Shown here piece after piece: positions 1,585 to 41,958 of a stretch of 45,378 nt of DNA. A program made the position numbers and the translations under genes. This stretch comes from Thiomicrospira sp. (lineage in GTDB: Bacteria; Pseudomonadota; Gammaproteobacteria; Thiomicrospirales; Thiomicrospiraceae), in contig JAUUDE010000002.1 in assembly GCA_030826915.1 (NCBI GenBank), positions 1 through 45,378 on the forward strand. Direction: 5' to 3'. Under the pieces are notes generated by a model. It did no database searches. It saw only the letters and a list, made by a program, of their open reading frames with translations, and was not told the origin of the DNA. The stretch's first letter is position 1. Every line of letters starts with the position of its first letter.

Positions 1585-2979
1585 TTAACCATGAGATATT
1601 CTTATTACATCATTAAAAACAGCCAGAACAGTTAGACTGACAAGAACCATCAATCCCAGAGTCTGACCTACGACCATTACACGTTCACTCACTGGTGAAC
1701 CCTTAACTATTTCTACTAAATAATACAGTAAGTGCCCGCCATCTAAGACCGGAATTGGTAATAAATTTAAAATACCAATACTCAAACTTATTAAACCAAC
1801 AAAACTTAAAAAAGCGACCAGGCCTGATTGTATTGCTTGGCCTGAAAACTGAGCGATACTAATTGGACCAGATAAATTTTTAGTACTCACCTCTCCAATA
1901 AGCATTCTCTTAAGCATGCTAAGACTCATCACAACCAAATCCACACTACGGTGATAAGCTTGAACAAAAGAATCTATAAAACCGTACTGAACAATCGTTG
2001 TATAAGGCTTAAAGGTATCCTTATCTACCTGAACACCTGCTCCTATCTTACCGAGCAATTTCGTATCTATCTCAACAGAATCTAGCTTAACATCTTGGTT
2101 ATAACGGACGCCTGAACGCTCAAATTGAACGTAAATTACTTGATTAGGTTTTGACTGAACTACTTTAACAAAATCCTGCCAGTTCTGGATAGGCTTTTCA
2201 TTAATCGAAATAATTTTGTCACCCGGCTTTAGCCCTGCTTGTGCAGCCGCGCCAGCCTCCAAAATTTGACCTAAAATAGCAGGGACTTCAGGCTGAGCTG
2301 GTTTGAAACCTAACAATTGCAACCAATTTTGATTGGTTTTATTAATATCGATTGCAGAAAGGCTCACTGCTGGCAAATAGATTTCTTTCGTCTCGGCAAG
2401 ATCTTTAAAAGCAAGGCTAACCTCAGCATCACCATTAGCTATAGACTGAAACAGCTGCTGTTGAACCATCTGCCAACTATGAACAGGGACATGATTAACC
2501 TCAGAAACCGACCAAATCTGACCATCATTTAGACTGACATTATTAGCCTGCATTGCCTGTGTAATTGCCGTATTTGGCTCAACATCAGAAACCAGAGGTT
2601 TCATTCCTGATACTCCAACCATAAACATAATGGCAAACACAATCCAGGCAAAAATAAGATTTACCATTGGCCCGGCCAATACGACAGCAATTCGTTTATA
2701 TACCGATTGTCTATTAAACGCTCGTGCAAGATCTGGCTCTACTAATTCACCTTCACGTTCATCTGCAAATTTTACAAAGCCACCCAAAGGAATCTGACTG
2801 ATAACAAATTCAGTTTCTTTTCCTTGAATAGTGTATACGGGCTTACCAAAGCCAATTGAAAATTTAAGAACTTTGATATTAAACCAGCGAGCAACTTGAT
2901 AGTGCCCCCATTCATGAATGGTAACAATTAAACTCATCACCACCACAAACCCCAAAAGAGACCAAATAACTTCCATCAA
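1585..2979 (-). CDS. rseP: RseP, site-2 intramembrane zinc metalloprotease
   Basis: RseP cleaves membrane-embedded substrates, in E. coli the anti-sigma factor RseA and remnant signal peptides, within the inner membrane. The 464-residue protein shows the zinc-binding HEWGH motif at residues 22-26 in the first membrane segment, a periplasmic PDZ domain around AAQAGLKPGDKIISINEKPI, and the second active-site motif PVLDGGH in a C-terminal membrane segment. It lies 6 bp after cdsA and 1 bp before bamA, so the three are almost certainly co-transcribed. In many gammaproteobacteria dxr sits next to or near this gene; it is missing here. A second start one codon in is possible (MM). Confidence 0.96.
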   Translation of the reverse strand: MMEVIWSLLGFVVVMSLIVTIHEWGHYQVARWFNIKVLKFSIGFGKPVYTIQGKETEFVISQIPLGGFVKFADEREGELVEPDLARAFNRQSVYKRIAVVLAGPMVNLIFAWIVFAIMFMVGVSGMKPLVSDVEPNTAITQAMQANNVSLNDGQIWSVSEVNHVPVHSWQMVQQQLFQSIANGDAEVSLAFKDLAETKEIYLPAVSLSAIDINKTNQNWLQLLGFKPAQPEVPAILGQILEAGAAAQAGLKPGDKIISINEKPIQNWQDFVKVVQSKPNQVIYVQFERSGVRYNQDVKLDSVEIDTKLLGKIGAGVQVDKDTFKPYTTIVQYGFIDSFVQAYHRSVDLVVMSLSMLKRMLIGEVSTKNLSGPISIAQFSGQAIQSGLVAFLSFVGLISLSIGILNLLPIPVLDGGHLLYYLVEIVKGSPVSERVMVVGQTLGLMVLVSLTVLAVFNDVIRISHG

Positions 2980-2985
2980 TCAGAC

Positions 2986-3798
2986 CTATACAACTGAACT
3001 AAAATGCCAAGCAAGATAAAGCATTGGAACAGCGATAAGCAAACTGTCTACTCTATCTAGAACGCCACCGTGGCCTGGTAGTATTTTGCCACTGTCTTTT
3101 AAGCCAACTTGGCGTTTAAGTACGCTTTCAAACAGGTCGCCAAACACAGAAAACAAAGCGATGAATACAAAAACAAGGGCAAGTAAATATACAGAAACTT
3201 TTAGCTCCGGCTGCATATAAAACAAAGCGAATACAGCAACAACAAAAGTAAGCACGCCTCCGCCAAAGACACCTTCCCATGTTTTACCTGGGCTAACATG
3301 AACAGCCAACTTGGTTTTACCAAACTTTCTACCACTAAAATAAGCGCCTGTATCTATAGCCCAAACCATTAACATACTCAAGAACAAGGCCATAGGACCC
3401 AGTTCAGTTCTAAACTGAACCATTGTGACCACAAATAAAACAATGGTTAAAACACCAGAGAAAAGCACAAAACCAACCGATTTAGTACCAACTTCACCTT
3501 TAGTTCTTTGGTAGCGAGTTACAACAGAAACCATCACAATGGCTTCTAGAAAAGTGAGTAACAGAATATTTTGATTACTTAACGCATCAATTGCAAAATT
3601 AGCACCCACCAAAACGCCTAGAGCAAAAATCAGTCTTAATGCAGGGGCTTTTAACTGTGCAAAAACAGCCCACTCCCAAGCGGCAATAAACCCAACAAAA
3701 AGAAGAACACCTTTCCAAACTAAATCAGACGAATAGAATAATGCCCAAATTGATAAAGCCGCCAAAACGACTGCTGTAATAACCCGTTGTTTTAACAT
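2986..3798 (-). CDS. cdsA: CdsA, phosphatidate cytidylyltransferase
   Basis: CdsA makes CDP-diacylglycerol from phosphatidate and CTP at the inner membrane, the branch point of phospholipid synthesis. The 270-residue protein is hydrophobic throughout with several membrane segments. It carries the family signature near the C-terminus (SPGKTWEGVFGG, then LPGHGGVLDRVDSL with the metal-binding Asp). The ATG at 3798 overlaps the last codons of uppS, indicating translational coupling, and rseP follows after 6 bp. Length matches the family (about 270-285). Confidence 0.95.
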   Translation of the reverse strand: MLKQRVITAVVLAALSIWALFYSSDLVWKGVLLFVGFIAAWEWAVFAQLKAPALRLIFALGVLVGANFAIDALSNQNILLLTFLEAIVMVSVVTRYQRTKGEVGTKSVGFVLFSGVLTIVLFVVTMVQFRTELGPMALFLSMLMVWAIDTGAYFSGRKFGKTKLAVHVSPGKTWEGVFGGGVLTFVVAVFALFYMQPELKVSVYLLALVFVFIALFSVFGDLFESVLKRQVGLKDSGKILPGHGGVLDRVDSLLIAVPMLYLAWHFSSVV

Positions 3799-7089: not shown

Positions 7090-7101
7090 ACCAGGCCTGG
7101 T
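7090..7101. repeat. 12-bp palindrome ACCAGGCCTGGT between rpsB and tsf
   Basis: An intergenic copy of the window-wide CAGGCCTG palindrome, extended to 12 bp. It sits 13 bases downstream of the rpsB stop. It could form a small hairpin in the rpsB-tsf transcript but lacks a T-tract typical of a terminator. Confidence 0.7.
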
Positions 7102-7855: not shown

Positions 7856-7895
7856 GATTTTTTCTCCAATATTTGGGTTAAGCCTCCGTCTACCC

Positions 7896-7934: not shown

Positions 7935-7990
7935 TGTCGGTAAACGTGCGGATTTTCTGTTAAAATTCCTCTCATTCGAAAGGCGCGGCA

Positions 7991-8019: not shown

Positions 8020-8093
8020 TTTAAATTCATTAATTCTCGGTAATTTAGCTACAAAACGCCAAGAGTTAAATTTTCAACTAAAAAGACCTTCTT

Positions 8094-8999: not shown

Positions 9000-11639
9000 A
9001 TGCCTAACCGCCCCAGTATTCCAAACTTTATGCAATCTATTGAAGAGAAGCAATCTCCTACTCCTGAGCAGATAAAAATTGGACGTACCATATTAAATGA
9101 GTTCACCAATTATCAATTTGAGCAATTTGAGAATGGTGGTGCTGTAGCAGAGTTAATTAAAGAGCGCTCCGCCTTTATTGACCAGTTCTTAAAAATGATC
9201 TGGCAAAAATTAATTCCAGAAGACATTGCAACATTAATCGCAGTTGGTGGTTATGGTCGTGGTGAATTACATCCATATTCAGACATTGATTTACTTATCA
9301 TCTGCGAGCAAATAACTGATAATCAAGAACAGTTATCTACATTCATTACCTTTCTTTGGGATCTAGGTTTTGATGTGGGTTATGCTGTACGCACCATTCA
9401 AGACTGTAAACAAGCAGGTCTGGAAGATGTCTCAACCGCTACAAACCTACTTGAATCACGTTGGTTAACAGGTGATTACAGCCGTTTTGAAGAACTCCAA
9501 AAACTGTGGAGTAATCAAACCTCTTTCTGGGCAAGTAAAGACTTCTTCCAAGCCAAGTTTGATGAACAGGAAAACCGCCACCAACGTTTTAACGATACTA
9601 TTTATCAACTTGAGCCTAATATCAAAGAGAGCCCAGGCGGATTGCGTGATATTCAAACTATTTACTGGGTAGCTAAAAGACACTTTAACGCAAATTCAAT
9701 CAATGAACTTGTCCAACGAAATTTCTTAACAACAGAAGAATTTTTAGAGATTGAAGCGGCTTATAAATACCTCAACCGTATACGCTTTGCTTTACAGCAC
9801 AAAAAGAAACGTCGTGAAGATCGCCTACAATTTGACCTACAACAATCTATTGCCGAAAGTTTTGGCTATGAAGACAATGAAGATAAAATTGCGGTTGAAC
9901 AATTTATGAGCAGCTACTACCGTAATGTTCATAACGTTGTAAAATTAAATGAGATTTTGCTACAACACTTTCGTGAAGTTTTATTTGATGATGACAACAC
10001 GGTTACAAAACCAATCAATAACCATTTCAAAACCGTCAATGATTATTTAGACATCACACACCCCAAAGTATTTTTAAAAAATCCAACTGCTCTACTTGAA
10101 TCCTTCATTATTTTAGAGAGCCTACCTGATCTTAAAGGTCTGCGCTCCAATGCAATTCGCTCTATTCGTGACCACTTATACTTGATTGATGAGAACTTCC
10201 GTAATGACCCAATAAATAAAGCCTTATTTATGGAGATTTTCAGACAACCTAAAGGGGTAAATGCGGCGGTAAAACGTATGCACAAATACGGTGTTTTAAG
10301 CGAATATCTACCAGTATTTAAAAAAATCACTGGCTTAATGCAATTTAATATATTTCACGCCTATACAGTTGATGATCATACAATTTTAGTTATCAGAAAC
10401 TTACGTCGTTTCTTTGTAGATGAATTTACCTATGAATTCCCTACAGCGCACCAAATCGCCAAAAATCTATGCAAACCAGAAATTCTCTTTTTAGCTGGTC
10501 TGTTCCATGACATTGCTAAGGGCAGAAATGGCGCACATGAAATATTAGGCGCGGTTGATGCAACTGAATTTGCTCAAAAACATAACCTGTCTAAAAAAGA
10601 CGGCAAAATGATTAGCTGGTTAGTGCGGTACCACCTAGATTTTTCAAGTATTGCTCAGAAAAAAGATTTAAGCGATCCAGAGGTCATTCAATACTTTGCC
10701 AATCTGGTTGGTGACCAAGAGCATCTTGACTACCTTTATTTACTAACGGTAGCTGACGTCTGTTCTACCTCAGCAGATGTTTGGAATGACTGGAAAAACT
10801 CGCTATTTCTAGAGCTGTACAATGAGACTTCCAATGTACTTGCTACAAACGTTAACTCTCCTAAAGATAAAGAGAAAAAAGCACTACAAACCCAAGAAAA
10901 ATCACGAGAAATCCTTTCAAAACGAGGCATTCCATCTACTGAGTTTAAACAATTCTGGCAAAGTTTATCGAATAGTGAATTCTTTAGCCGACAAAACCCA
11001 AACGACGTTGCAAGAATTACCAAATTGCTTTACACATGCGATAAAAACAAAGAACACGTGTTTCTTCAAGAACAAACACAAAAAGGCGCATCTGAACTTG
11101 TTATTTACATGCCAGACCGAGATTATCTTTTTGCGCATATCGCGCATACTTTAGATTCACTAGGTACAGATGTTGTTGAAGCTAGAATTTTCAGCACGCT
11201 AGACAAAATGACACTGGTTATAATCTACTTCTTAGACCGTGAAAATCACGATTATATTGATGAATCTCGTCATGCTGAAATTATTGATAAGGTTAAATAC
11301 CAGTTAACCCAAGATGAAATTGAACCACTTGAAATGACGAATGTACTCAAAAATAGGCGTACACGTCATTTTGATACTCCAACAGAGATTATCTACAATC
11401 AAGTCAACGATTGCATGACTGAATTAACCATTAACACCAAAGACACCCCAGGCCTGCTCGCTCGCATTGGTTGCGCCCTTAAAACAGAAAATATTCGTTT
11501 GTATGATGCCAAAATTCATACCGTAGGCGAAAAAGCAGAAGATGTATTCTTAATAAGCCAAACAGACAACCTAGCTATAAAAAGCAAGGGAAAACAAAAG
11601 CAATTAACCGAAGCGTTAATTGAAATGATTGAACAATAG
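9000..11639 (+). CDS. glnD: GlnD, PII uridylyltransferase/uridylyl-removing enzyme
   Basis: GlnD senses glutamine and uridylylates or deuridylylates PII proteins, setting glutamine synthetase activity and nitrogen-regulated transcription. The 879-residue protein has the nucleotidyltransferase motif GGYGRGELHPYSDIDLL at about residues 82-98, the GlnD linker (SPGGLRDIQTIYW), an HD hydrolase motif LFHDIAKGRNGAHE near residue 500 and two C-terminal ACT domains (from about 700 and 805) that bind glutamine. The map-glnD neighbourhood is known from other gammaproteobacteria. No other nitrogen-regulation gene is nearby. Confidence 0.96.
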   Translation: MPNRPSIPNFMQSIEEKQSPTPEQIKIGRTILNEFTNYQFEQFENGGAVAELIKERSAFIDQFLKMIWQKLIPEDIATLIAVGGYGRGELHPYSDIDLLIICEQITDNQEQLSTFITFLWDLGFDVGYAVRTIQDCKQAGLEDVSTATNLLESRWLTGDYSRFEELQKLWSNQTSFWASKDFFQAKFDEQENRHQRFNDTIYQLEPNIKESPGGLRDIQTIYWVAKRHFNANSINELVQRNFLTTEEFLEIEAAYKYLNRIRFALQHKKKRREDRLQFDLQQSIAESFGYEDNEDKIAVEQFMSSYYRNVHNVVKLNEILLQHFREVLFDDDNTVTKPINNHFKTVNDYLDITHPKVFLKNPTALLESFIILESLPDLKGLRSNAIRSIRDHLYLIDENFRNDPINKALFMEIFRQPKGVNAAVKRMHKYGVLSEYLPVFKKITGLMQFNIFHAYTVDDHTILVIRNLRRFFVDEFTYEFPTAHQIAKNLCKPEILFLAGLFHDIAKGRNGAHEILGAVDATEFAQKHNLSKKDGKMISWLVRYHLDFSSIAQKKDLSDPEVIQYFANLVGDQEHLDYLYLLTVADVCSTSADVWNDWKNSLFLELYNETSNVLATNVNSPKDKEKKALQTQEKSREILSKRGIPSTEFKQFWQSLSNSEFFSRQNPNDVARITKLLYTCDKNKEHVFLQEQTQKGASELVIYMPDRDYLFAHIAHTLDSLGTDVVEARIFSTLDKMTLVIIYFLDRENHDYIDESRHAEIIDKVKYQLTQDEIEPLEMTNVLKNRRTRHFDTPTEIIYNQVNDCMTELTINTKDTPGLLARIGCALKTENIRLYDAKIHTVGEKAEDVFLISQTDNLAIKSKGKQKQLTEALIEMIEQ

Positions 11640-12751: not shown

Positions 12752-13885
12752 ATGACTGAAACCATTCAACTTGCCCAACAACTTATTCAAATTGATTCTG
12801 TAACTCCTAATGACAAAGGTTGTCAGAAGATGATTGCAGACTACCTAAAGCCAATGGATTTCAAAATAGAAAACATGAAATTTGGCGAAGTAGATAATAT
12901 TTGGGCTCGCAGAGGCACCGAATCACCTTGCTTGGTTTTTGCTGGCCATACCGATGTCGTACCTACGGGCCCAGAATCAGCTTGGACACATCCTCCATTC
13001 TCCGCACATATTGATGGTGATATGATGTTTGGACGTGGTACGGCTGACATGAAAAGCTCCATTGCTTGTTTTATGGCTGCGAGTAAACGTTTTGTCTCTG
13101 AGTACCCTCATCACAAAGGCTCTATTGCTTACTTAATTACCAGCGACGAAGAAGGCCCTGCTATTGATGGAACAGTCAAAGTTATAGAAACGTTAGAAGC
13201 TCGTAATGAAAAATTTGAATACTGTTTAGTTGGAGAACCCTCAAGTTCTAATAAATTAGCTGATTCAATTAAAAATGGGCGTCGTGGTTCTTTAAGCGGC
13301 ACTTTAACAGTTAAAGGTGTTCAAGGGCATATAGCCTACCCACAACTTGCAGACAACCCAATTCACAATATGGCTCCTGCACTTGAACAACTTGTGCAAG
13401 TGCAATGGGATCACGGAAATGAGTACTTCCCTCCTACGTCATTCCAAATTTCCAATATTAATTCTGGAACAGGTGCAACCAATATCATCCCAGGAGAAGC
13501 TGTGATTCAGTTCAACTTCCGTTTTTCAACTGAACACACAGCAGAGTCCTTACAAGAAAGTGTGCATGCAATTCTTGATCATCACAACCTAGAGTACACT
13601 CTGGACTGGAATCTATCAGGCCTGCCTTTTATTACACCAGCTGAAGGCGAGCTTATTCAAGCCGTTCAAGATGCCTCACAAACTATTTTAGGTTACAAAC
13701 CAGAACTCTCTACTGCGGGGGGAACTTCTGACGGTCGCTTTATTGCTCCAACGGGCGCACAAGTTATTGAACTAGGCCCTATAAACGCAACCATACATAA
13801 AATTGACGAGCAAGTCAGTGTGAGTGATTTAAACAAGTTAACTGATATTTATTATCAAACAATGGTTAACTTACTGGCAAACTAA
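12752..13885 (+). CDS. dapE: DapE, succinyl-diaminopimelate desuccinylase
   Basis: DapE hydrolyses N-succinyl-L,L-diaminopimelate in the lysine/meso-DAP pathway that feeds peptidoglycan. The di-zinc M20 peptidase motifs are visible: FAGHTDVVPTGP (about residue 63-74), GRGTADMKSS, the catalytic SDEEGPA, GEPSSSN and the C-terminal GGTSDGRFIA and HKIDEQVS. The 377-residue length is typical. It follows the ArsC-like gene by 122 bp on the same strand. Confidence 0.97.
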   Translation: MTETIQLAQQLIQIDSVTPNDKGCQKMIADYLKPMDFKIENMKFGEVDNIWARRGTESPCLVFAGHTDVVPTGPESAWTHPPFSAHIDGDMMFGRGTADMKSSIACFMAASKRFVSEYPHHKGSIAYLITSDEEGPAIDGTVKVIETLEARNEKFEYCLVGEPSSSNKLADSIKNGRRGSLSGTLTVKGVQGHIAYPQLADNPIHNMAPALEQLVQVQWDHGNEYFPPTSFQISNINSGTGATNIIPGEAVIQFNFRFSTEHTAESLQESVHAILDHHNLEYTLDWNLSGLPFITPAEGELIQAVQDASQTILGYKPELSTAGGTSDGRFIAPTGAQVIELGPINATIHKIDEQVSVSDLNKLTDIYYQTMVNLLAN

Positions 13886-14903: not shown

Positions 14904-16340
14904 TTAACTTTTGTCTCGTTTTGCATTCCAAACATAGATTGCATAGAGTGCGAAGGTTATCAAAACCATCGTCACCACAGCATCATCTGCTACCAAGTTT
15001 GTTGAAAACACTACCATAACAGCAATGGGTGCAATCCACTTTAAAACAAAAATAAACACACTCATTAAGTTACCGGATAAAGGAATTTCCTGACTTCGTA
15101 CATCGTCTTTCAAAATCCATGCAACAAATACTGCCATTAACAGACCACCTAAAGGCAACATAATATTAGCTGTAATGTAATCAACAGAATCAAAGAAAGT
15201 ACGTTCTCCCAAGAAGTGTAAATCTGACCATTCGTTAAATGACAACACCGTGCCAATACCAATCGTCCAGATAATAAAGCCTAAAATCCAGGCGGCTTTA
15301 ACACGCTTAATCCCCCAGTTTTGATCAAACCAACTTACCGCAGGCTCAATCAATGAAATGGCCGAACTAAGTGCGGCCATAACAACCAAAGCAAAGAATA
15401 AAGTCCCAAAAAACCAGCCTCCTGCCATTTCACCAAATGCTACCGGCAGGGTTTGAAACAATAAGCCTGGACCTGAACCTGCTTCTAAGCCATTTGCAAA
15501 TACAATGGAAAAAATAACCAGGCCTGCTAAAAGTGCCACAATTGTATCGGCAAACGCAATCCAAAGCCCTGCTTTTACAATCGAGTATTCTTTAGAAAGG
15601 TATGAACCATAAACCATCATGGTTCCAAGCCCAATACTTAAAGTAAAAAACGCATGCCCCATAGCTGTTAATACCGCTTGCCAAGTCAGTTTAGAAAAGT
15701 CTGGCGCAAATAAGAAATTAAGGCTTTGCGTAAAAGCACCCGTTGTCGTTGCATAACCTAGCAAAACCAAAAGAATCAATAACAGACCAGGCATCATAAA
15801 AGTAATGGCTTTCTCAATACCACTTTTAATGCCTTTAGCCACCACAATCACAGTAAACAATGTCACTACAGTGTGCCAAAAAATAAGTTCGTAAGGGTTT
15901 GCTAACAGGCCACTAAAGTGTTCTCCCACGGCATTTGCATCAATACCAATAAAAACACCTTTTAAACTGTCTACAAAATAGGACACCGCCCAACCTGCAA
16001 TAACGGTATAAAACGACAAAATTAATGCTCCGGCTAAAACGCCATTCAGTCCAAGCAATCCCCACAAACGACTGCCGCCATTCTCACGCGCTACATTAGC
16101 CATAGCCTGCACTGGGTTTGCCTTACCTGCACGCCCTAATGCTAATTCAGAAAGCAGTACAGGAATACCAATTAACAACACACACCCTAAATAAACCAAA
16201 ACAAAAGCGCCACCGCCATTTTCACCAGTAATATAAGGAAATTTCCAAAGATTCCCTAACCCAACTGCTGAACCAACCGCTGCCATAATAAAAACAGTTT
16301 GAGATGACCAAGAATCTTTAGAAAGTTGTAACTGACTCAT
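14904..16340 (-). CDS. NSS/SNF-family sodium-dependent transporter
   Basis: A 478-residue, highly hydrophobic protein of the neurotransmitter:sodium symporter family, which imports amino acids or related amines with Na+. TM1 carries the family signature GSAVGLGNLWKFPY with the unwound substrate and sodium site, followed by GGGAFVLVYL. The remainder gives roughly eleven to twelve membrane helices of the LeuT fold. The substrate cannot be told from sequence; bacterial members often carry tryptophan, tyrosine or alanine. The gene stands alone, divergent from murB. Confidence 0.92.
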   Translation of the reverse strand: MSQLQLSKDSWSSQTVFIMAAVGSAVGLGNLWKFPYITGENGGGAFVLVYLGCVLLIGIPVLLSELALGRAGKANPVQAMANVARENGGSRLWGLLGLNGVLAGALILSFYTVIAGWAVSYFVDSLKGVFIGIDANAVGEHFSGLLANPYELIFWHTVVTLFTVIVVAKGIKSGIEKAITFMMPGLLLILLVLLGYATTTGAFTQSLNFLFAPDFSKLTWQAVLTAMGHAFFTLSIGLGTMMVYGSYLSKEYSIVKAGLWIAFADTIVALLAGLVIFSIVFANGLEAGSGPGLLFQTLPVAFGEMAGGWFFGTLFFALVVMAALSSAISLIEPAVSWFDQNWGIKRVKAAWILGFIIWTIGIGTVLSFNEWSDLHFLGERTFFDSVDYITANIMLPLGGLLMAVFVAWILKDDVRSQEIPLSGNLMSVFIFVLKWIAPIAVMVVFSTNLVADDAVVTMVLITFALYAIYVWNAKRDKS

Positions 16341-18154: not shown

Positions 18155-18178
18155 AAAACCACCAGGCCTGGTGGTTTT
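18155..18178. terminator. 24-bp perfect palindrome terminator containing CAGGCCTG
   Basis: AAAACCACCAGG and its exact complement meet without a spacer, ending in TTTT on both strands. It separates the convergent START and mscS genes. Its core is one of the twenty CAGGCCTG copies of this window. Confidence 0.85.
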
Positions 18179-18204: not shown

Positions 18205-19311
18205 CTATTTTAGAACCTCTATTTCAGGCGAATTTTCAATATGTAAAGTACGTGTTGGAAAAGCCATTTCAGCACCGTGAGACTCCACAATATCACTAAT
18301 GGTTAACAATACATCTTGCTTAATCTCATGAAACTTTATCCAGTCTGTTGTCTTTGTAAAAGTATAGATAAAGAAATCCAAAGAGGACGAGTTAAAGGCA
18401 TTAAAGTTAACAATCAGAGTTTGATGATTGTCAATCTCGGGATGCTCTCTTAACATTTGTTTCACTCCTTTAATAATCTCTCGCATTTTATGTACATCTG
18501 CATAACGAATACCCATCGTCTCTTTAATTCGACGGTTTGTCATTCGTGATGGGTTCTCTATTGCTATGTTTGCAAAAATACCATTCGGAATATACAGAGG
18601 ACGCTTATCAAATGTTCGGATTGTTGTTCTTCGCCAGCCAATTTGCTCAACAGTGCCTTCAATCTCTTGATCAGGAGAACGAATCCATTCACCTACTGTA
18701 AATGGCTTGTCCATATAGAGCATTAGGCCTCCAAACAAATTACTTAGTAAGTCTTTAGCGGCAAAACCGATGGCAATACCACCTACTCCACCAAAAGCTA
18801 ACAGGCCTGTTAAACTTACTCCAAAAGCATTTAAGAAGAATAAAGTAGTTATTATAAAAACAAGTAAACGAATAATCTTTGCAAAGGCTTCAACAGTAAC
18901 TTCATCTAAACGCTCATCCTCTCTTGCAAAAGTTTTTAAATGTAATTCCAATCTTTGTACTAGACGAATCGCAAACCAACCAACTGACAAAGTCAGAATT
19001 GTTGATTTAAATGACAATATAAACGGCACAATATCAGTGTAAACACCAAACTGAGTAATAGTGGTAGTTAAAGCTAAAACCAAGCCTGTTACCCAAATAA
19101 AGAAAGAAACCGGCGCCCTGGCAGCGTCCACAAAACTATCAACCCAAACTCGGCCTGCTTTTTCCAATTTAAGGTGCACAATGCGTAAAACATAACGCTG
19201 AACAATATCAATAATAACGGTAATCGTAAGTATTGATAAAACCAATAATAACCAAACCTGGCCGCCAAACATAGCAACCAACTCTGTCCAAATTTGCGTT
19301 AACCATTCCAT
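18205..19311 (-). CDS. MscS-family mechanosensitive channel
   Basis: A 368-residue inner-membrane protein that should release osmolytes on hypo-osmotic shock. Four to five membrane helices precede the pore-lining helix and beta domain: GVSLTGLLAFGGVGGIAIGF, then AAKDLLSNLFGG, then KPFTVGEWI and TVEQIGWRRTTIRTFD. This length and the extra N-terminal helices resemble YbdG/MscM-type members rather than the short MscS. Its ATG overlaps the nagZ stop by one base (TAATG), so it is translated from the nagZ transcript. Confidence 0.92.
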   Translation of the reverse strand: MEWLTQIWTELVAMFGGQVWLLLVLSILTITVIIDIVQRYVLRIVHLKLEKAGRVWVDSFVDAARAPVSFFIWVTGLVLALTTTITQFGVYTDIVPFILSFKSTILTLSVGWFAIRLVQRLELHLKTFAREDERLDEVTVEAFAKIIRLLVFIITTLFFLNAFGVSLTGLLAFGGVGGIAIGFAAKDLLSNLFGGLMLYMDKPFTVGEWIRSPDQEIEGTVEQIGWRRTTIRTFDKRPLYIPNGIFANIAIENPSRMTNRRIKETMGIRYADVHKMREIIKGVKQMLREHPEIDNHQTLIVNFNAFNSSSLDFFIYTFTKTTDWIKFHEIKQDVLLTISDIVESHGAEMAFPTRTLHIENSPEIEVLK

Positions 19312-20515: not shown

Positions 20516-20965
20516 ATGGCTAAACTGATTGGCATTGCGACACACCAAGAATCAAAAGGAATTATTACCACCCACGATGAAATTTCTGTTTCACTTGAAG
20601 CGGGTTTAAAAGATGATTATCAAGGGCAGAAAAACCGAAAAACTCAAGTGACATTACTCTCGTTAAAAAGCTGGCAACAGGCCTGTAAGGAAGCGGGCAA
20701 AGAAATTGATTGGACAGAACGCAGAGCCAATTTATTACTGGACGACATGGAGTTTGACGACTTTATGGTTGGTCTACAAATTCAAGTAGGGTCAGTTTTG
20801 CTAGAAATCACTAAAGAAACTGACCCTTGTTTAAGAATGGAAATGTTACAACCGGGCCTTAAAGACGCCCTAACACCCAAGTGGCGTGGTGGTGCACGTT
20901 GTAAAGTTTTACGCGCTGGCTCAATCAAAGTAGGCAATAACGTTAGTCTTCTAAAACGTCTTTAA
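20516..20965 (+). CDS. MOSC-domain protein
   Basis: A 149-residue stand-alone MOSC domain (molybdenum cofactor sulfurase C-terminal type). Homology is suggested by the start MAKLIGIATH, the segment TQVTLLSLKSW, ERRANLLLDDMEF, then the conserved Cys in KETDPCLRMEM and the end RGGARCKVLRAGSIKVGNNV. Such proteins bind or carry sulfur or molybdenum cofactor ligands; the specific role is unknown. The ATG at 20516 is preceded by AAGGAAA. It stands alone between minus-strand genes. Confidence 0.82.
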   Translation: MAKLIGIATHQESKGIITTHDEISVSLEAGLKDDYQGQKNRKTQVTLLSLKSWQQACKEAGKEIDWTERRANLLLDDMEFDDFMVGLQIQVGSVLLEITKETDPCLRMEMLQPGLKDALTPKWRGGARCKVLRAGSIKVGNNVSLLKRL

Positions 20966-21842: not shown

Positions 21843-22765
21843 TAGTTTGCCACCCTAATTCTTGGGTCAAGCCAAGCGTAAACCAACTCTGTTAATCCAT
21901 TGATTGTAATGTAAGCGACACTAATCACTAAAATACAGCCCTGCACCACTGGATAATCACGACGTTGAATCGACTCAACCAATAACTGTCCAAGCCCAGG
22001 CCAATCAAAGACCACTTCGGTAATAACAGCGCCACCCAATAATGTACCCAATTGCAAGCCCAGAATGGTTACTACAGGTAATAAGGCATTTAATAATGCA
22101 TGCTTTCCATAGACTAAAGAAGATGGTAAACCTTTGGCCTGAGCGGTACGAATAAAGTCCTCATGCATCACTTCTAATAACGATGCTCTTAACATACGTG
22201 CCAAAATAGCGGCTAATGCCGTACCAAGTGTTATAGCGGGTAAAACCCAAGAAAACGGTTGTTCTGCACCACTTACTGGCAGCCACGCCAAACCCAGTGA
22301 AAAGACTAAAATTAGCATTGGACCTAACCAAAAGTTAGGGATGGAAACCCCAATGAGTGAAACGGTCATAGAAAGATGGTCAGGCCACTTACCTGCTCTT
22401 AAGGCTGCCCAAATTCCGAGTGGAAACGCTATCAGTATCGCTACTAATAAGGCCATAACCGCCAATTGCAACGTCATCGGAAAACGTTCTGCAATTAAAT
22501 CGGAGACCGGTTGCTGAAAAAACAGAGACTGACCTAAATCAAAATTAACCAGGCCTGTTAGATAATGAATATATTGTGTCCAAATAGGTAAATGTAAACC
22601 TAATTGTTCTCTTAAAGCTGTTTCATCCGCAGGGCTTGCCCAATCGCCTAACATCACCGCAACTGGATCACCAGGAACTAAATGGATAAGAAAGAAAACC
22701 AGTGTTCCTACCACCCACGAAACAAATAGAACCGAACCCAATAAACGTAAAATATAAGCAATCAA
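21842..22765 (-). CDS. Peptide-type ABC importer permease, DppB/OppB-like
   Basis: A 307-residue permease with the N-terminal DppB signature (LVPGDPVAVMLGD), a membrane core, and the coupling loop MLRASLLEVMHEDFIRTAQAKG followed by ALLPVVTILGLQLGTLLGG (quoted in parts). It overlaps the YkuD gene upstream by ATGA and the second permease downstream by one base, so all three are co-translated. Substrate class is peptide or nickel-like by family. The neighbouring L,D-peptidase argues for murein peptides, which is inference. Confidence 0.9.
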   Translation of the reverse strand: MIAYILRLLGSVLFVSWVVGTLVFFLIHLVPGDPVAVMLGDWASPADETALREQLGLHLPIWTQYIHYLTGLVNFDLGQSLFFQQPVSDLIAERFPMTLQLAVMALLVAILIAFPLGIWAALRAGKWPDHLSMTVSLIGVSIPNFWLGPMLILVFSLGLAWLPVSGAEQPFSWVLPAITLGTALAAILARMLRASLLEVMHEDFIRTAQAKGLPSSLVYGKHALLNALLPVVTILGLQLGTLLGGAVITEVVFDWPGLGQLLVESIQRRDYPVVQGCILVISVAYITINGLTELVYAWLDPRIRVAN

Positions 22766-26831: not shown

Positions 26832-27725
26832 TTATGAGTTATAAACACCAGTAGAAAGATAGCGGTCACCACGATCACAAATAATACATACAATGACTGC
26901 ATTCTCAACCTCATCAGCCACTTTTAAAGCAGCTGCTACAGATCCACCTGAAGATACCCCTCCAAATATACCCTCTTCAACGGCCAACCTGCGCATAGTC
27001 TCTTCAGCAAGGGTTTGTGACATATCAATGGTTCTATCTACACGAGTAGATTCATAAATTTTAGGCATGTACTCTGCTGGCCAGCGACGAATCCCTGGTA
27101 TAGCCGCTCCGTCTTCAGGCTGAACACCAACAATCTGCACCTTAGAATTTTGCTCTTTCAAATACATTGATGTTCCCATGATTGTACCTGTTGTACCCAT
27201 CGCACTTACAAAATGCGTGATTTCTCCTTGAGTATCGCGCCAAATTTCCGGGCCTGTTGAATCATAGTGAGCCAACGGATTATCAGGATTTGCAAATTGA
27301 TCAAGAACCACACCCTCTCCATTTGCAGACATTCTAGCCGCTAAATCACGCGCACCTTCCATTCCATCTTCTTTCGTCACTTCGATCAGCTCGGCACCGT
27401 ATGCCGCCATGGAGGCTTTACGTTCCATACTCATATTATTAGGCATAATCAATTTCATTTTATAACCCATCATAGCCGCCGCCATCGCTAAGGCAATCCC
27501 AGTATTACCACTGGTTGCTTCAATTAGAGTATCCCCTGGAGAAATATCACCTCTCATTTCAGCTTGTTTAATCATATTTATGGCAGGCCTGTCTTTAACC
27601 GAGCCAGCAGGATTATTCCCCTCTAACTTGGCTAATACAACACTGTTGGTATTGGGGTTGATCATTCTTTGTAACTTAACTAAAGGAGTATTACCCACAA
27701 AATCCATTAATGTTTTGTATTCCAT
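26832..27725 (-). CDS. cysM: CysM, cysteine synthase B
   Basis: CysM makes cysteine from O-acetylserine and sulfide or thiosulfate with PLP. The PLP lysine lies in NNPAGSVKDRPA, the phosphate-binding segment in EATSGNTGIALAMA, and the SAMGTTGTIMGTS and EEGIFGGVSSGGSVAAA loops are intact. The residues DGAAIPGIRRWP are typical of CysM rather than CysK. Length is 297. It lies downstream of a 578-bp non-coding region containing a large inverted-repeat element and one CAGGCCTG copy. Confidence 0.95.
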   Translation of the reverse strand: MEYKTLMDFVGNTPLVKLQRMINPNTNSVVLAKLEGNNPAGSVKDRPAINMIKQAEMRGDISPGDTLIEATSGNTGIALAMAAAMMGYKMKLIMPNNMSMERKASMAAYGAELIEVTKEDGMEGARDLAARMSANGEGVVLDQFANPDNPLAHYDSTGPEIWRDTQGEITHFVSAMGTTGTIMGTSMYLKEQNSKVQIVGVQPEDGAAIPGIRRWPAEYMPKIYESTRVDRTIDMSQTLAEETMRRLAVEEGIFGGVSSGGSVAAALKVADEVENAVIVCIICDRGDRYLSTGVYNS

Positions 27726-27759: not shown

Positions 27760-27771
27760 ACCAGGCCTGGT
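27760..27771. repeat. 12-bp palindrome ACCAGGCCTGGT upstream of cysM
   Basis: An extended copy of the window-wide CAGGCCTG palindrome, 35 bases upstream of the cysM start, where it could lie in the leader or promoter. Confidence 0.7.
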
Positions 27772-32892: not shown

Positions 32893-34422
32893 TTACCCGT
32901 TAGCCTTCGCTGCATTACGGTTAATTTCGTCTTTCGCTTCTTGTTCTTGTTTGGTTTTTTTAGCCGCTGCATCACGCTTAACGTCACCACCCCAAGATTC
33001 ATTACGCATCACTAAACAGAATTTAAGCACAGAATCATCCAAATCTTTAAACGGGTTTGGAATACGCACAATCCAACCTGAACCTTTTGCGCAATCCACT
33101 ACTTCATCATGGTGTGTTTGCATATGGTTTAACACCATAGAAACGTTTCCAGCTGGGCTCATAATTTCAATTGAATCGCCTACGCAGAACTTGTTCTTAA
33201 CATCAATTTCTAAGAACGACTTACCATCACGCTCAACCACATCAGTCACTTCTCCCACAAAACGCTGATGCTCTGACTTAGAGACACCGTATTCATAGTT
33301 TTGATACTCTGAATGCACGTGACGACGTAAGAAACCTTCAGTATAACCACGGCTAGCTAGGCTTTCTAAGTCCGTTAATAGGGTTTGGTCAAATTCTTTA
33401 CCTTCTAACGCATCATCAATCGCTTTACGATAAACTTGTGCTGTTCTAGCCACATAGTAATGAGACTTAGTACGTCCTTCGATTTTTAGTGAATGTACAC
33501 CCATATCAACTAACTCAGGAATCAGTTCAACCGCACGAAGATCTTTTGAGTTCATGATATAAGTACCATGCTCATCTTCAAATGCTGGCATTAACTCACC
33601 AGGCCTGCCCTCTTCTTCAAGAAGCATCGCCATTTCTGTGGTTTCACCTAAACCTAAGGTCGGTTCAGGCGTATTACTTGTAACCTCTGGAGCAGCTCTA
33701 TCGGTACTGCCTGTCAAATCGGTAATATTCTCTACTTCAATACGTGGCGTACCAACTACATCACCGGTTTCATCTTCTTTGGCTTCATAGGTGTTGTAGT
33801 TCCAACGGCAAGCATTAGTGCAAGTTCCTTGGTTTGCATCGCGTTTATTGATGTAACCAGATAGAAGACAGCGGCCAGAATAAGCAATACACAAAGCCCC
33901 GTGAACAAAAACTTCCAGTTCCATCTCTGGTACTTTTTCACGAATTTCACGAATTTCAGCAATGGATAATTCGCGAGAAAGTACCACACGGCGTACACCA
34001 TTTTGATACCAAAACTTTACCGTAGCCCAGTTTACCGCATTGGATTGAACCGATAGGTGAATCTCTTGTTCTGGGAACTTCTCATGAACCATTGCAATCA
34101 GGCCTGGGTCAGACATGATTAAAGCATCCGGTTTCATTGCTATAACCGGCTCAATGTCTTTCATGTAAGTATTCACTTTAGAGTTATGTGCGGCAATGTT
34201 ACTCACTACATAAAACTTCTTGCCAAGCTCATGAGCACGAGCAATCCCTTTGGCTAGATTCTCTTCATCAAACTCATTATTTCTAACACGAAGACTGTAA
34301 CGAGGTTGGCCTGCATAAACGGCATCAGCACCGTAGGCAAAGGCATATTCCATGTTTTTGGTTGTGCCGGCGGGCGATAAAAGTTCTGATACAACACGTG
34401 TATTAAGGTTGTCTGCTTTCAA
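32893..34422 (-). CDS. trhP: TrhP (YegQ), U32-family tRNA uridine-34 hydroxylase
   Basis: TrhP forms 5-hydroxyuridine at tRNA position 34, the precursor of cmo5U, with prephenate and an iron-sulfur cluster in E. coli. The 509-residue protein shows the U32 start ELLSPAGTTKNMEYAFAYGA, YAGQPRYSLRVRNNEF, the cysteine-bearing HGALCIAYSGRCLLSGYIN and QGTCTNACRW, and EDEHGTYIMNSKDLRAVE. It has an extra stretch at about residues 215-265 and a basic, low-complexity C-terminal tail (RDAAAKKTKQEQEAK), making it longer than the E. coli protein. Start is TTG at 34422, with AGGAGA six bases upstream. Confidence 0.93.
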   Translation of the reverse strand: MKADNLNTRVVSELLSPAGTTKNMEYAFAYGADAVYAGQPRYSLRVRNNEFDEENLAKGIARAHELGKKFYVVSNIAAHNSKVNTYMKDIEPVIAMKPDALIMSDPGLIAMVHEKFPEQEIHLSVQSNAVNWATVKFWYQNGVRRVVLSRELSIAEIREIREKVPEMELEVFVHGALCIAYSGRCLLSGYINKRDANQGTCTNACRWNYNTYEAKEDETGDVVGTPRIEVENITDLTGSTDRAAPEVTSNTPEPTLGLGETTEMAMLLEEEGRPGELMPAFEDEHGTYIMNSKDLRAVELIPELVDMGVHSLKIEGRTKSHYYVARTAQVYRKAIDDALEGKEFDQTLLTDLESLASRGYTEGFLRRHVHSEYQNYEYGVSKSEHQRFVGEVTDVVERDGKSFLEIDVKNKFCVGDSIEIMSPAGNVSMVLNHMQTHHDEVVDCAKGSGWIVRIPNPFKDLDDSVLKFCLVMRNESWGGDVKRDAAAKKTKQEQEAKDEINRNAAKANG

Positions 34423-34467: not shown

Positions 34468-34968
34468 CTATACTAAATGAGATATTTTTTCTTGCCAAAA
34501 CAACCGTTTATCTTCTGCGGTTATTGCCGCATTGGCTGGACTGGTTGATGATAAAACAATGTATTCAATATCATCTGGAATAGACTGCTGTTTGATAACG
34601 TAACGTTTAAAGAGTTGTTCGGCTTTTTTACCATTGAAACAGATGGTTTTAATACTTGGATATTTTTCTAAAAGCATTTCAAAATCATTTGCTTGCGGAT
34701 TTTTAATAGCCGAATCCAAACTACCTTGTCGCTCACAAGCCGCTAACACATCCCAAAGCACCAGGCCTGCTTGTCGAATCAAGGCTGTTTTATCCTCATC
34801 AGAGTCAATTGGTAAATCAAAGATTGAACTCATAATTGGCCAAAAAGCGTTTCTGGGATGTGCATAGTAAAAAGCTTGATTAAGTGATTCAACACTAGGC
34901 ATAGTGCCCAAAATCAAAACTTTGGGTTTAGCGGAGATAATGGGGTCAAACCCCAAACATAAAGACAT
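34468..34968 (-). CDS. DNA-deoxyinosine glycosylase (uracil-DNA glycosylase superfamily)
   Basis: A 166-residue member of the UDG superfamily. The N-terminal motif LILGTMPSVESL, the segment AFYYAHPRNAFWPIM and the C-terminal LSSTSPANA are those of the hypoxanthine/deoxyinosine glycosylase group rather than classical Ung. It would remove deaminated adenine (hypoxanthine) from DNA. It is the last gene of its strand before the intergenic gap following rimO. Family placement is by motif; exact substrate is inferred. Confidence 0.82.
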   Translation of the reverse strand: MSLCLGFDPIISAKPKVLILGTMPSVESLNQAFYYAHPRNAFWPIMSSIFDLPIDSDEDKTALIRQAGLVLWDVLAACERQGSLDSAIKNPQANDFEMLLEKYPSIKTICFNGKKAEQLFKRYVIKQQSIPDDIEYIVLSSTSPANAAITAEDKRLFWQEKISHLV

Positions 34969-38024: not shown

Positions 38025-39653
38025 ATGAAAAATTCGCTTAACCGCTGGTTACTGCTCTCGTTGGTCATAACATTACTTATGACCACGCCTATTTGGGTTT
38101 TATTCAGTTTCATTTTTGAACCGACAAATGAAAACTGGCTTCACCTGTCTGAAACCTTATTACCAGAGTATATCGTCAACTCTTTGTGGTTGATGTTTGG
38201 TGTTGCAATTGGCACCCTACTCTTTGGTGTAAGCAGCGCATGGTTAGTTAGTCAGTATCAGTTTTTTGGGCGGTCTTTTTTTCAATGGGCTTTACTTTTA
38301 CCCTTAGCACTTCCTGCCTATATTATTGCTTACACTTATACAGGCCTGCTTGAGTTTGAAGGGCCTGTGCAAACCTATTTAAGAAGTATTTTCTCCGTTG
38401 CCAGTATCAACACATGGTTTCCAGAAATCCGCTCTTTAGGGGGCGCTGTACTGATGTTTTCTCTTGTACTGTACCCTTATGTTTACCTGCTGGCTAGAAG
38501 TAGCTTTGCCAACAATGGCTCACAAGCAATGGAGGTCAGTCGTACCTTAGGAGCGGGGCCATTTAAAGGTTTCTTTTTGGTTGCCTTACCAATGGCTCGC
38601 CCCGCCATAATCGCTGGGTTAACCCTTGCTTTAATGGAAACGCTTGCTGATTTTGGAACCGTACAATACTTTGGCGTGCCTACGTTCACCACAGGCATTT
38701 ACAGAACATGGACTGGTTTTGGTGATACTACTACCAGTGCGCATCTCTCTCTTATTTTGCTCGCTTTTGTTGCTACAGTAATGCTATTAGAACTCTGGTC
38801 AAGAAGACAGGCTCGATACTTTAACTCTAATAAAAAGCCTCAAGACCAAACATTAACACCGCTTAAAGGCAGACAAAACCTAGTTGCGTTTTTAGTATGT
38901 TTATTGCCTGTTCTGCTTGGGTTTTTAATCCCTGCGGCACAGCTTTTATATTGGAGCATTGCAACCGCTGAAGAGGGGCTAAATAGTGAATTTTATACTT
39001 TGGTATGGAACAGTTTCTCTCTTGCTTTTATTAGCGCAATCATTGTGCTATTCATTGCCCTAACTCTGGCGTATTTAAAGCGTATTAATCAACACCCTCT
39101 TGCCAACATTTCCACACGTATAGCAACTCTGGGTTACGCCATTCCTGGTACGGTTATGGCGATTGCGGTGATGATTCCCCTTACCTGGCTAGACAATTCC
39201 ATTGATGAGTGGATGCAAAGCAATTTTGGTATTTCAACAGGCCTGTTGCTGTCAGGTACTCTGATTGCATTAGTTTTTGCCTATACCTTGCGTTTTCTTT
39301 CCGTTTCCTTACAGACCATCGATTCAGGTTTAGAACAAATCAAACCGACTATGGATGACTCAGCACGTACTTTAGGTGCTAGCCGCTTTAAGATACTTAA
39401 AGAGGTTCATATCCCGCTTTTAAAAAGCAGCATCATTACCGCCTTTTTACTTGTCTTTGTTGAAGTTTTGAAAGAACTGCCAACCACCTTAATTTTAAGA
39501 CCGTTTAACTTTAACACCCTTTCAGTGAGAGCCTATGAAATGGCGGCTGATGAACGCCTTGCAGACTCAGGTTTGCCTGCCCTGCTTATTGTCTTAACAG
39601 GCCTGATACCTGTGATTATCCTTAGTAAAATGATTGGAAAAAAACATGCGTGA
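38025..39653 (+). CDS. fbpB: FbpB, ferric-iron ABC transporter permease
   Basis: A 542-residue permease with about twelve membrane helices and two fused permease halves, as in FbpB/HitB. Each half has an EAA loop: MEVSRTLGAGPFKGFFLVALP and DDSARTLGASRFKILKEVHIP. It lies 26 bases after fbpA and overlaps the ATPase gene. Confidence 0.93.
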   Translation: MKNSLNRWLLLSLVITLLMTTPIWVLFSFIFEPTNENWLHLSETLLPEYIVNSLWLMFGVAIGTLLFGVSSAWLVSQYQFFGRSFFQWALLLPLALPAYIIAYTYTGLLEFEGPVQTYLRSIFSVASINTWFPEIRSLGGAVLMFSLVLYPYVYLLARSSFANNGSQAMEVSRTLGAGPFKGFFLVALPMARPAIIAGLTLALMETLADFGTVQYFGVPTFTTGIYRTWTGFGDTTTSAHLSLILLAFVATVMLLELWSRRQARYFNSNKKPQDQTLTPLKGRQNLVAFLVCLLPVLLGFLIPAAQLLYWSIATAEEGLNSEFYTLVWNSFSLAFISAIIVLFIALTLAYLKRINQHPLANISTRIATLGYAIPGTVMAIAVMIPLTWLDNSIDEWMQSNFGISTGLLLSGTLIALVFAYTLRFLSVSLQTIDSGLEQIKPTMDDSARTLGASRFKILKEVHIPLLKSSIITAFLLVFVEVLKELPTTLILRPFNFNTLSVRAYEMAADERLADSGLPALLIVLTGLIPVIILSKMIGKKHA

Positions 39654-40719: not shown

Positions 40720-40740
40720 TCCTGTAATGACAATGGGTAA

Positions 40741-40800
40741 AACAATAAAATTAAAAAATAAAACAATAAAAATGAAACAATAAAAATGAAACAATTTAAA
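40741..40800 (+). repeat. Tandem repeat of AAACAATAAAAATG units before the porin start
   Basis: The 14-base unit AATAAAAATGAAAC occurs twice in a row (copies starting at 40765 and 40779), preceded by diverged A-rich copies. The first copy creates an ATG AAA CAA TAA micro-reading frame immediately upstream of the true start at 40786. Slippage here could shift translation efficiency. Confidence 0.6.
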
Positions 40801-41958
40801 CCTGAATTCAAATTAAACAAACCAATATTATCTAGAACCAAATTGCTTTTAGCGCTTAGTATTTTTGGCTTTACACCAATTATCCAAGCCAGCCCAACTC
40901 AAACTAACATGGCGGTAGAAACCAAAGCTTTGGATTACACTGCAAACTTAAACTATATCCATCAATCTAGTTCAGATCGTGACTTAGTGCCTAGTAATAC
41001 GCTTTCTGCAGACTTGACCGTTACTTATCAGGCAAGTTCTTCAATTTTATGGAATTTGCACATTGAAGCGGCTTCTACGCAAAATAATCATACCGTTTCT
41101 AAGCTGATTGCCGACAGTAATGCTGATGCAGGTTCAGCTGAGGATGAGGCCAATCAAGGTCGCATTCAAGTATCAGAATTTTTCATTCAGAAGACATTTA
41201 ATGCAAATAATCAAATAACAGCAGGCCTGGTTGATGCAACTGCTTTTTTAGACAGTTCTTCGTTTGCTAACGATGAAAACATGCAATTTATCACCTCTTC
41301 ACTTGTCAACAACCCGGTCATTGATTTTCCAGACTATGTTTTAGGCTTTGCTTATCAACACCAATTTTCTGAAACAATCGGATCTACTCTATTTATTTCA
41401 TCAACGCACGGATTGTCAGACAACGCTGCTCATAGTTACAGTAATTTGTTTGAAGTTCGAGATGATCAAAAAGGCATTTTTAGTGCTCTTGAAACGCAGT
41501 TTAATACTGCACAATTAGAAATTAAATCCGGTATTTGGTTACATAATGGAGAGCATGAGGCGTTAAATGATAGTACACAAAAACATCTATTCAACTATGG
41601 AGTCTATGTAAACATTGATAAAAGTATACAAAAACACGGCTTTTCAATGCGGCTTGGCGCTTCTAACCCTAAAGTAGCAACAACAGACCAATTTTTCTCT
41701 TTGGCTTACCAGTACGCCAATAATGACGATGTGTTTGGGTTAGGCTACAGCCAGACTTTTCAGTCAGACTATATTCAAGGAACAAGTATCAAAAACCCTC
41801 AAGTTATTGAAGCATATTGGAATAAAAATTTAGGAAAAAACTGGTCGGTTACGCCATCCATTCAAATGTTTAAAAATCCACAAATTGATGATGAAACACT
41901 GTACATAGAGAGCGATAGCATTTATAACACGAATGTGCGTCTAACCTACAACTTTTGA
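40786..41958 (+). CDS. Outer-membrane porin-like protein (LbtU-like)
   Basis: A 390-residue exported protein. After a signal peptide (cut near IQA) come alternating beta strands and a C-terminal aromatic residue (NVRLTYNF), the insertion signal of outer-membrane barrels. The overall pattern, with a central acidic loop (SNADAGSAEDEANQGRI), resembles the LbtU/porin group linked to siderophore or iron uptake. Its place right after fbpABC supports an iron role, but the ligand is unknown. The region before the ATG is a tandem repeat without a clear ribosome binding site. Confidence 0.7.
   Translation: MKQFKPEFKLNKPILSRTKLLLALSIFGFTPIIQASPTQTNMAVETKALDYTANLNYIHQSSSDRDLVPSNTLSADLTVTYQASSSILWNLHIEAASTQNNHTVSKLIADSNADAGSAEDEANQGRIQVSEFFIQKTFNANNQITAGLVDATAFLDSSSFANDENMQFITSSLVNNPVIDFPDYVLGFAYQHQFSETIGSTLFISSTHGLSDNAAHSYSNLFEVRDDQKGIFSALETQFNTAQLEIKSGIWLHNGEHEALNDSTQKHLFNYGVYVNIDKSIQKHGFSMRLGASNPKVATTDQFFSLAYQYANNDDVFGLGYSQTFQSDYIQGTSIKNPQVIEAYWNKNLGKNWSVTPSIQMFKNPQIDDETLYIESDSIYNTNVRLTYNF

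Follow-up and report, generated by a model that had tools for sequence, protein, structure and literature searches.

The octamer in the 45-kb window

The window, the whole stretch of 45,378 nucleotides of Thiomicrospira sp. DNA that was analysed, contains 20 exact copies of the octamer CAGGCCTG, which lie in peptidase, ABC permease and other genes and in intergenic DNA (Table 1). With the strands merged, it is the most frequent 8-mer of the window. Dinucleotide shuffles of the window contained on average 0.32 copies and at most 2, with 0 of 100 shuffles reaching 20, and an order-3 Markov model gave an expectation of 0.76, so that the iteration far above chance claimed in the earlier note was borne out. 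A recount returned the figures of that note, namely 17 coding and 3 intergenic copies, a split that depends on our choice of open reading frames. The N-GGC-CTG reading frame is shared by 13 of the 17 coding copies, and the proposal of that note that codons are bent to fit the word was right.

Table 1. Copies of the octamer in the window, from the first to the last
Element	Position	Strand	Context
CAGGCCTG	1819..1826	.	peptidase M50 (RseP-like) gene, Gly-Leu frame
CAGGCCTG within ACCAGGCCTGGT	7092..7099	.	intergenic, tsf-like and rpsB-like genes either side
CAGGCCTG	11449..11456	.	glnD-like gene
CAGGCCTG	13617..13624	.	M20 peptidase gene
CAGGCCTG	15519..15526	.	SNF symporter gene; octamer unchanged in 4 word-rich relatives
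CAGGCCTG	18163..18170	.	intergenic, convergent genes; part of longer inverted repeat ACCACCAGGCCTGGTGGT
CAGGCCTG	18802..18809	.	mscS-like gene
CAGGCCTG	20678..20685	.	MOSC-domain gene, offset 0 frame
CAGGCCTG	21240..21247	.	ABC permease gene
CAGGCCTG	21712..21719	.	ABC permease gene, offset 0 frame
CAGGCCTG	22550..22557	.	ABC permease gene
CAGGCCTG	27584..27591	.	PALP-family gene, offset 2 frame
CAGGCCTG within ACCAGGCCTGGT	27762..27769	.	intergenic
CAGGCCTG	33600..33607	.	U32 peptidase gene, offset 2 frame
CAGGCCTG	34099..34106	.	U32 peptidase gene
CAGGCCTG	34762..34769	.	uracil-DNA-glycosylase-superfamily gene
CAGGCCTG	38341..38348	.	ABC permease gene
CAGGCCTG	39238..39245	.	ABC permease gene
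CAGGCCTG	39598..39605	.	ABC permease gene
CAGGCCTG	41222..41229	.	gene of 390 aa, no Pfam match at E 1e-8

Distribution in the genome and the family

The window's own genome, G000, belongs to Thiomicrorhabdus (Thiomicrospiraceae) and is a draft of 1,786,265 bases in 99 contigs that is 86% complete. It holds 655 copies of CAGGCCTG, as compared with 1 copy of the reversed-word control; the enrichment is not confined to the window, and the earlier description of a highly iterated, genome-wide palindrome resembling HIP1 in form stands. Over 374 kb of G000, the copies were evenly distributed among 21 stretches (chi2 28.6, 20 df) and their spacing was Poisson-like (CV 1.00 vs 0.99 simulated). The density is 1 copy per 2.7 kb in G000 and ranges in the family from roughly 1 per 1.8 kb to 1 per 8.5 kb. 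Among 62 genomes of Thiomicrospiraceae, the distribution is bimodal, nearly all-or-none, with 236-1173 copies in 32 genomes and 0-74 in the other 30.

The Gly-Leu frame common to most coding copies of the window would be compatible with the word being a functionless by-product, whether of codon usage, of terminators or of a mobile repeat. The reversed-word count argues against this, as does the absence of the word from close relatives with a similar composition. Moreover, copies occur in all frames, coding and non-coding, and the Gly-Leu frame is not universal: it accounts for 88 of the 114 coding copies sampled in G000 but for 9 of 29 in G035, which prefers another frame and belongs to a genus that is word-rich in 9 of 9 genomes.

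The extended element

The octamer, taken as the unit in the earlier note, turned out to be part of a longer element whose form varies between species. Of the 11 word-rich genomes examined as samples, 10 show AC/GT flanks at CAGGCCTG together with T-tracts about one helical turn off the dyad. The tracts are strongest at intergenic copies, where T at +6, +7 and +8 has frequencies of 0.64, 0.66 and 0.59 (256 half-sites, 11 genomes pooled), as compared with 0.33, 0.25 and 0.26 at other GGCC sites (338 half-sites); coding copies show 0.43 at each position against a background of 0.25-0.28. The remaining genome, G035, has no T-tract (0.80 of 3 vs 0.78 background). Both halves of the palindrome carry the tract about independently of each other, and a one-sided tract was looked for in the genomes with CAGGCCTG and not found. 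Perfect copies barely exceed those with a single mismatch (138 vs 120 in G000, 341 vs 336 in ten other genomes pooled), and with the word masked the surplus single mismatches fall mainly at outer positions.

Other words in word-poor genomes

Three word-poor genomes, G023, G020 and G063, bear other dispersed words of similar plan, ACCGGCCGGT, ACCCGGCCTGTTGAGTTTT and CCCAGCCTGGCAGATTTT, respectively, each with AT-rich tracts beside it. The first occurs 1025 times in G023 and at most 15 times in each of the other 36 genomes searched; like CAGGCCTG, the word of G023 (CCGGCCGG) is a palindrome, and it is flanked on both sides. The words of G020 and G063 are non-palindromic and one-sided. That of G020 has T-tracts at about 12-16, 25-28 and 36-37 (33 sites), and its right half resembles that of word-rich relatives, among which G020 is nested in the ComEC tree (SH-aLRT 100). 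That of G063 often stands in inverted pairs; its 13-mer is found 94+117 times there and at most twice in each of the other 61 genomes. For these longer words, perfect copies outnumber single mismatches by 107 to 22 (G023), 30 to 12 (G020) and 12 to 6 (G063). The four words within one family are clade-specific dialects.

No dispersed word was detected in 14 further word-poor genomes, of each of which 18-61 kb was sampled, the sampling having left out 13 word-poor genomes (one of them, G069, covered for 2.6 kb only). Candidate words in G003, G013, G019, G024 and G064 were rejected, each being confined to one repeat field, and k-mers from G010, G012, G016, G022, G026, G028, G029, G031 and G068 yielded no dispersed word other than C/G runs.

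Placement, origin and maintenance of word sites

In each of the 5 sets compared, word density peaks between convergent genes, the set of G063 having been chosen at listed sites, and some intergenic copies of CAGGCCTG lie inside terminator-like inverted repeats. An intergenic excess was not seen in the G035 sample. When word-rich and word-poor orthologues were aligned, 118 of 126 pairs were gap-free at the word site, indicating that sites arise by substitution, not by insertion or copying. Once formed, CAGGCCTG is maintained at orthologous positions: among 105 orthologue pairs from two word-rich genomes, 37 had the octamer unchanged, as compared with 62 of 1018 control 8-mers. The copies within terminator-like repeats are a further point of agreement with a functionless by-product, an explanation which the origin by substitution and the strong retention against in-frame controls nevertheless oppose; we regard it as already contradicted and improbable in the extreme.

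Methyltransferases and the word

In form, the word recalls HIP1 and the alternate HIPs of cyanobacteria, which are likewise octameric, GC-rich and extremely iterated palindromes, with other words replacing the main one in some relatives. In Elhai's model, an orphan methyltransferase, here acting on AGGCCT or GGCC, would let methylation-guided repair or another process accumulate the word. The outward bias of the surplus single mismatches agrees with that which Elhai reports for HIP1 (PMC4390886, in part), and some methyltransferase family is present in many word-rich genomes. However, when the earlier suggestion of an orphan methyltransferase was followed up with four Pfam families (PF00145, PF01555, PF02384 and PF02086) over 37 genomes, none tracked CAGGCCTG, and we rejected all four as sources of a cognate enzyme. 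None of the four had a match in G017 (653 copies) or G027 (522 copies), both 99% complete, and G000 and G033 had only borderline PF02384 matches (E 6.9e-4 and 6.3e-4). A HIP1-type model fits poorly with the two genomes lacking all four families. T-tracts, and the one-sidedness of two of the four words, would be unexpected for a methylation site and set the present words apart from HIP1, as does the want of a consistent methyltransferase. Maintenance by methylation is thus very unlikely in our judgement.

Competence apparatus and receptor candidates

In known uptake systems, ComP is a specific receptor and ComN a proposed one. ComEC was found in 33 of 37 genomes, including G000. Those without it are G004, G006 and G029, which are fragmented drafts (G006 being word-rich), and the 99% complete, word-poor G031. 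Since most word-poor genomes have ComEC too, it does not track the word, and we rejected loss of competence as the cause of word loss, ComEC being near universal and the four exceptions uninformative.

Of 22 genomes searched for the pilin family PF07963, G000 alone had 0 matches, the remaining 21 having 3-15 each. Its top matches were set aside as receptor candidates because their N-termini look, on our reading, like those of type II secretion pseudopilins. The GspH family PF12019 was set aside on weak matches in only 3 of 37 genomes, and a pilin-rich locus adjoining a MiaB-like gene in 9 genomes showed no clear co-variation with dialect. Among the papers listed in literature searches, no report was seen of competence, of an uptake word or of the present repeat for Thiomicrospiraceae.

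Interpretation and comparison with known systems

We prefer the hypothesis that CAGGCCTG is the core of a candidate DNA uptake signal, a self-recognition tag for natural transformation in Thiomicrospiraceae, and consider this somewhat probable from the genomic patterns. The competence apparatus would include a receptor for DNA at the cell surface, perhaps a minor pilin, that prefers the short GC-rich core accompanied, at a distance of about one helical turn, by T-tracts, which would favour bending. Word-bearing fragments would enter cells and recombine more frequently, so that mutations making or restoring the word would spread by molecular drive, mostly under weak coding constraint. A shift in receptor specificity would then shift the genomic word and give rise to dialects. 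Within this scheme, the iteration, the extended motif, the dialects, the origin of sites by point change, their maintenance at orthologous positions and the intergenic and terminator bias are observed in the genomes; receptor, uptake and drive are what we infer. Among the three roles offered in the earlier note, the uptake signal is best supported, by the dialects, the T-tracts and the terminator bias; the methyltransferase target is poorly supported in view of G017 and G027.

Several observations count against an uptake signal: the lack of a PF07963 pilin match in the draft G000, a ComEC that does not track the word, palindromic words where known uptake words are typically non-palindromic (PMC1939737, in part), a density below that of known systems, random spacing, G035 without a T-tract, 14 sampled word-poor genomes in which no dispersed word was found, and the near parity of perfect and single-mismatch copies. 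Alternatively, a dimeric chromosome protein acting inside the cell, such as a nucleoid organiser or a segregation or repair factor, may bind the word genome-wide, with dialects following changes in its recognition surface. The symmetry, with A/T tracts placed one turn off the dyad, would suit a dimer that binds with bending, as would the near independence of the two halves and the flanks on both sides of the G023 word. Uniform placement over the sampled contigs, retention of the octamer at orthologous sites and the absence of a pilin match from the window's own draft genome are also consistent with such a protein. On the other hand, the words of G020 and G063 are one-sided, about half of the family is without CAGGCCTG, and the 14 sampled word-poor genomes showed no replacement. 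The peak between convergent genes and the inverted pairs of G063 match what is known of uptake words in terminators (PMC1852404, in part). We regard a chromosome-protein site as unlikely, if worth keeping in view.

Two families are reported to include species with strong uptake words (Mora et al. 2020, PMC7811141, in part). If the uptake signal is real, Thiomicrospiraceae would join Pasteurellaceae and Neisseriaceae as a third bacterial family with genome-encoded, self-specific signals, of separate evolutionary origin. Most of its word-bearing species would use a palindromic core centred on GGCC, beside at least three further dialects, one of them having changed within one genus from a symmetric to a one-sided form; we hold this, from comparison of the genomes, only a little above evenly balanced. 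The family would then be a new place to find an uptake receptor. Free-living and cultivable, and with dialect switches between close species, it offers a test of spread by receptor preference against a cellular role. If the word does not serve uptake, then a recognition code extends over the whole chromosome, differs from one species to the next and is equally unexplained.

The traits found here have also been published for USS and DUS (PMC1626085, PMC7811141 and PMC1852404, each in part). As in the USS of Pasteurellaceae, a strict core is dispersed in hundreds to more than 1000 copies with T/AT-tracts beside it (here most distinct in G020), non-coding DNA is preferred, variants are specific to clades and sites arise by point mutation. 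Unlike USS, most word-rich species here have a palindrome of different core with tracts on both sides; density is lower, dialects at genus level are more numerous, and uptake is a prediction. USS and DUS are spaced somewhat more evenly than random, whereas spacing here is random, and their perfect copies outnumber single mismatches, which here is clear for the longer words. The DUS of Neisseriaceae differ in being non-palindromic, in having a known receptor, ComP, where ours is only inferred, and in that word-poor species are common in Thiomicrospiraceae. DUS dialects have been published (PMC3630211, in part); as in that family, the dialects here are family-wide and have a sub-core in common, with an indel or a change of one or a few bases separating some of them, and inverted pairs near gene ends recur in G063.

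The palindrome in the window, its genome and its family

The octamer palindrome CAGGCCTG is the top-ranking 8-mer of the window, with 20 copies as compared with a mean of 0.32 and a maximum of 2 in dinucleotide-keeping shuffles, and the runner-up 8-base palindrome has 9 copies, approximately its expectation. The earlier note had described it as a highly iterated palindrome of this genome, and the draft genome containing the window, G000 (1,786,265 bases in 99 contigs, 86.4% complete), indeed carries 655 copies as compared with 1 of the reversed word used as a control. We also reproduced its counts of 17 coding and 3 intergenic copies, with 13 of the 17 read in the N-GGC-CTG frame; the host genes are ordinary in their Pfam matches. 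Over 374 kb of G000 (20 stretches and the window), the spacing is Poisson-like and the counts are even from stretch to stretch. The genes of the window that we take to be rpsB and tsf were named with the help of a t44 RNA.

The top named match of the window's RpsB is Thiomicrorhabdus sp. Milos-T2 (97%), followed by further Thiomicrorhabdus, Hydrogenovibrio and Thiomicrospira, and the host is therefore placed in Thiomicrospiraceae. The enrichment extends well beyond the window: 32 of 62 genomes of this family contain 236 to 1173 copies (word-rich) and 30 contain 0 to 74 (word-poor), with none in between. Word-rich genomes make up 15 of 32 in the window's genus, 7 of 11 in Hydrogenovibrio (genus assigned through G068), and 9/9, 1/1, 0/4, 0/1 and 0/4 in the remaining genera. 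Among 21 genomes from other families of the class, the top count was 222 (control, 91), and the highest word-to-control ratio at counts above 100 was 108 to 15.

Shape and origin of the sites

AC is favoured before the octamer and GT after it. A T-tract lies at +6 to +8, about 10 bp from the dyad, in 10 of 11 sampled word-rich genomes, and was not found in word-rich G035 (0.80 of 3 versus 0.78). In the 11 genomes pooled, T frequencies at +6, +7 and +8 were 0.64, 0.66 and 0.59 for intergenic copies (256 half-sites), 0.43 at each position for coding copies (698 half-sites), and 0.33, 0.25 and 0.26 for background GGCC sites (338 half-sites). The tracts on the two sides are approximately independent, and a second, weaker T excess occurs at +20 and +21. 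The most frequent flank varies by lineage, with mixtures: ACC in G000, G030, G018, G027, G033, G036 and G035, AAC in G005 and G017, and AGC in G008 and G025.

We compared 28 coding sites of the rpsB region in word-rich species with word-poor orthologues, of which 118 of 126 were ungapped at the site and 8 gapped. The mean mismatch to the octamer was 3.15 (2.88 for upstream control 8-mers), and residues were identical in 53 of the 118. Between word-rich orthologues the octamer was intact at 37 of 105 positions, compared with only 62 of 1018 for in-frame neighbour 8-mers (each reciprocal pair counts twice). In G000 there were 138 perfect and 120 single-mismatch copies, the chance expectation for the single-mismatch copies being 82.5; ten further genomes together had 341 and 336 (chance expectation 311.5), and the 10-mer of G023 had 107 and 22. 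In each of the five sets, word density peaked where neighbouring genes converge; an intergenic excess was not found in the smaller G035 sample.

Different words in word-poor relatives

Three of the sampled word-poor genomes, G023, G020 and G063, carry a different dispersed word. That of G023, ACCGGCCGGT, has A-/T-rich flanks on both sides and 1025 copies, as against 0 to 15 in 36 other genomes searched. The G063 (Hydrogenovibrio) word, CCCAGCCTGGCAGATTTT, is frequently found in close inverted pairs; its 13-mer was counted 94 plus 117 times there, and none of the 61 other genomes had more than two. Since three of the four G063 stretches were picked at listed word sites, they inform on shape, not density. 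In G020 the word is ACCCGGCCTGTTGAGTTTT, and 33 sites aligned on GGCCTGTTGAG show T-tracts at 12-16, then 25-28 and 36-37, confined to one side. A quick ComEC tree of 30 genomes places G020 with word-rich G005, G008, G017 and G025 (SH-aLRT 100) and G023 with word-poor G003, G010, G012 and G024 (SH-aLRT 89-90). Because the right half of the G020 word, GGCCTGTT followed by a T-tract, is similar to the right half seen in G005 and G017, the word looks like a shifted specificity and not a new element.

Possible roles

The earlier note had offered a methyltransferase target, a nucleoid or replication mark, or a DNA uptake signal; our data disfavour the first and favour the last as a candidate. Elhai (PMC4390886) ties cyanobacterial HIP-type palindromes to methyltransferases, and in CAGGCCTG, as in HIP1, single mismatches are biased outward. 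However, word-rich G017 and G027 gave no matches to the four families searched (PF00145, PF01555, PF02384 and PF02086), and G000 and G033 gave only borderline PF02384 matches. With regard to these families, the word is probably not a HIP1-type palindrome kept by methylation.

Most traits of the Pasteurellaceae and Neisseriaceae uptake sequences, as given in PMC1626085, PMC3630211, PMC7811141 and PMC1852404, are found here: a dispersed strict word, AT-tracts, a bias towards non-coding DNA, inverted pairs near the ends of genes, sites arising by point change, and dialects. Known uptake words differ, however, in being non-palindromic (PMC1939737) and spaced somewhat more evenly than random (PMC1626085), neither of which applies to CAGGCCTG. 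ComEC does not discriminate, since 33 of 37 genomes have it, G000 among them. Of 22 genomes searched for pilin N-termini, 21 gave matches and draft G000 did not, a real point against uptake, softened by the small size of G000 relative to its relatives (about 2.5 Mb). No receptor candidate emerged from families, the pilin search or pilin loci. On these comparisons we lean, with some reserve, towards a dialect-forming uptake signal in a family other than the two already known, a leaning slightly weakened by the lack of a T-tract in G035; the main rival, a site for a chromosomal binding protein, appears rather unlikely.

A pilin-rich locus lies beside a MiaB-like gene (stretches L313-L321), its short pilin having a constant N-terminus and a variable remainder. 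The G020 short pilin is closest to those of G012 (55%) and G030 (51%), with 38-48% to clade mates.

Features located in the window and in sampled stretches of relatives
Location	Genome	Positions	Feature
Window	G000	7877-7968 (-)	t44 RNA (Rfam RF00127), 70.5 bits, upstream of rpsB-like gene
L232 (C1)	G020	~87209-89076	ComEC, aligning only to residues 1-618 of a relative's 862; C-terminal part seems absent; D12-class methyltransferase match just past its end
L256	G018	41-3804	38 copies of a repeat with CGTGGATTGAAA in <4 kb; perhaps a CRISPR array
L136	G030	8706-11445	~19 GTCATCCTGA, both orientations, within 3 kb
L126	G019	9918-15620	Large local repeat field, one 10-mer 96 times in 5.7 kb
L277	G064	8853-16049	Large local repeat field, several words with 18-35 copies each across 7 kb
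L134	G024	7986-8256	Tandem repeat, 18 bp unit
L123	G003	13477-14683	Tandem repeat, ~393 bp unit

Numerous eight-base runs of C or G were also seen in the AT-rich drafts G029 (L181, L182) and G016 (L175, L176).
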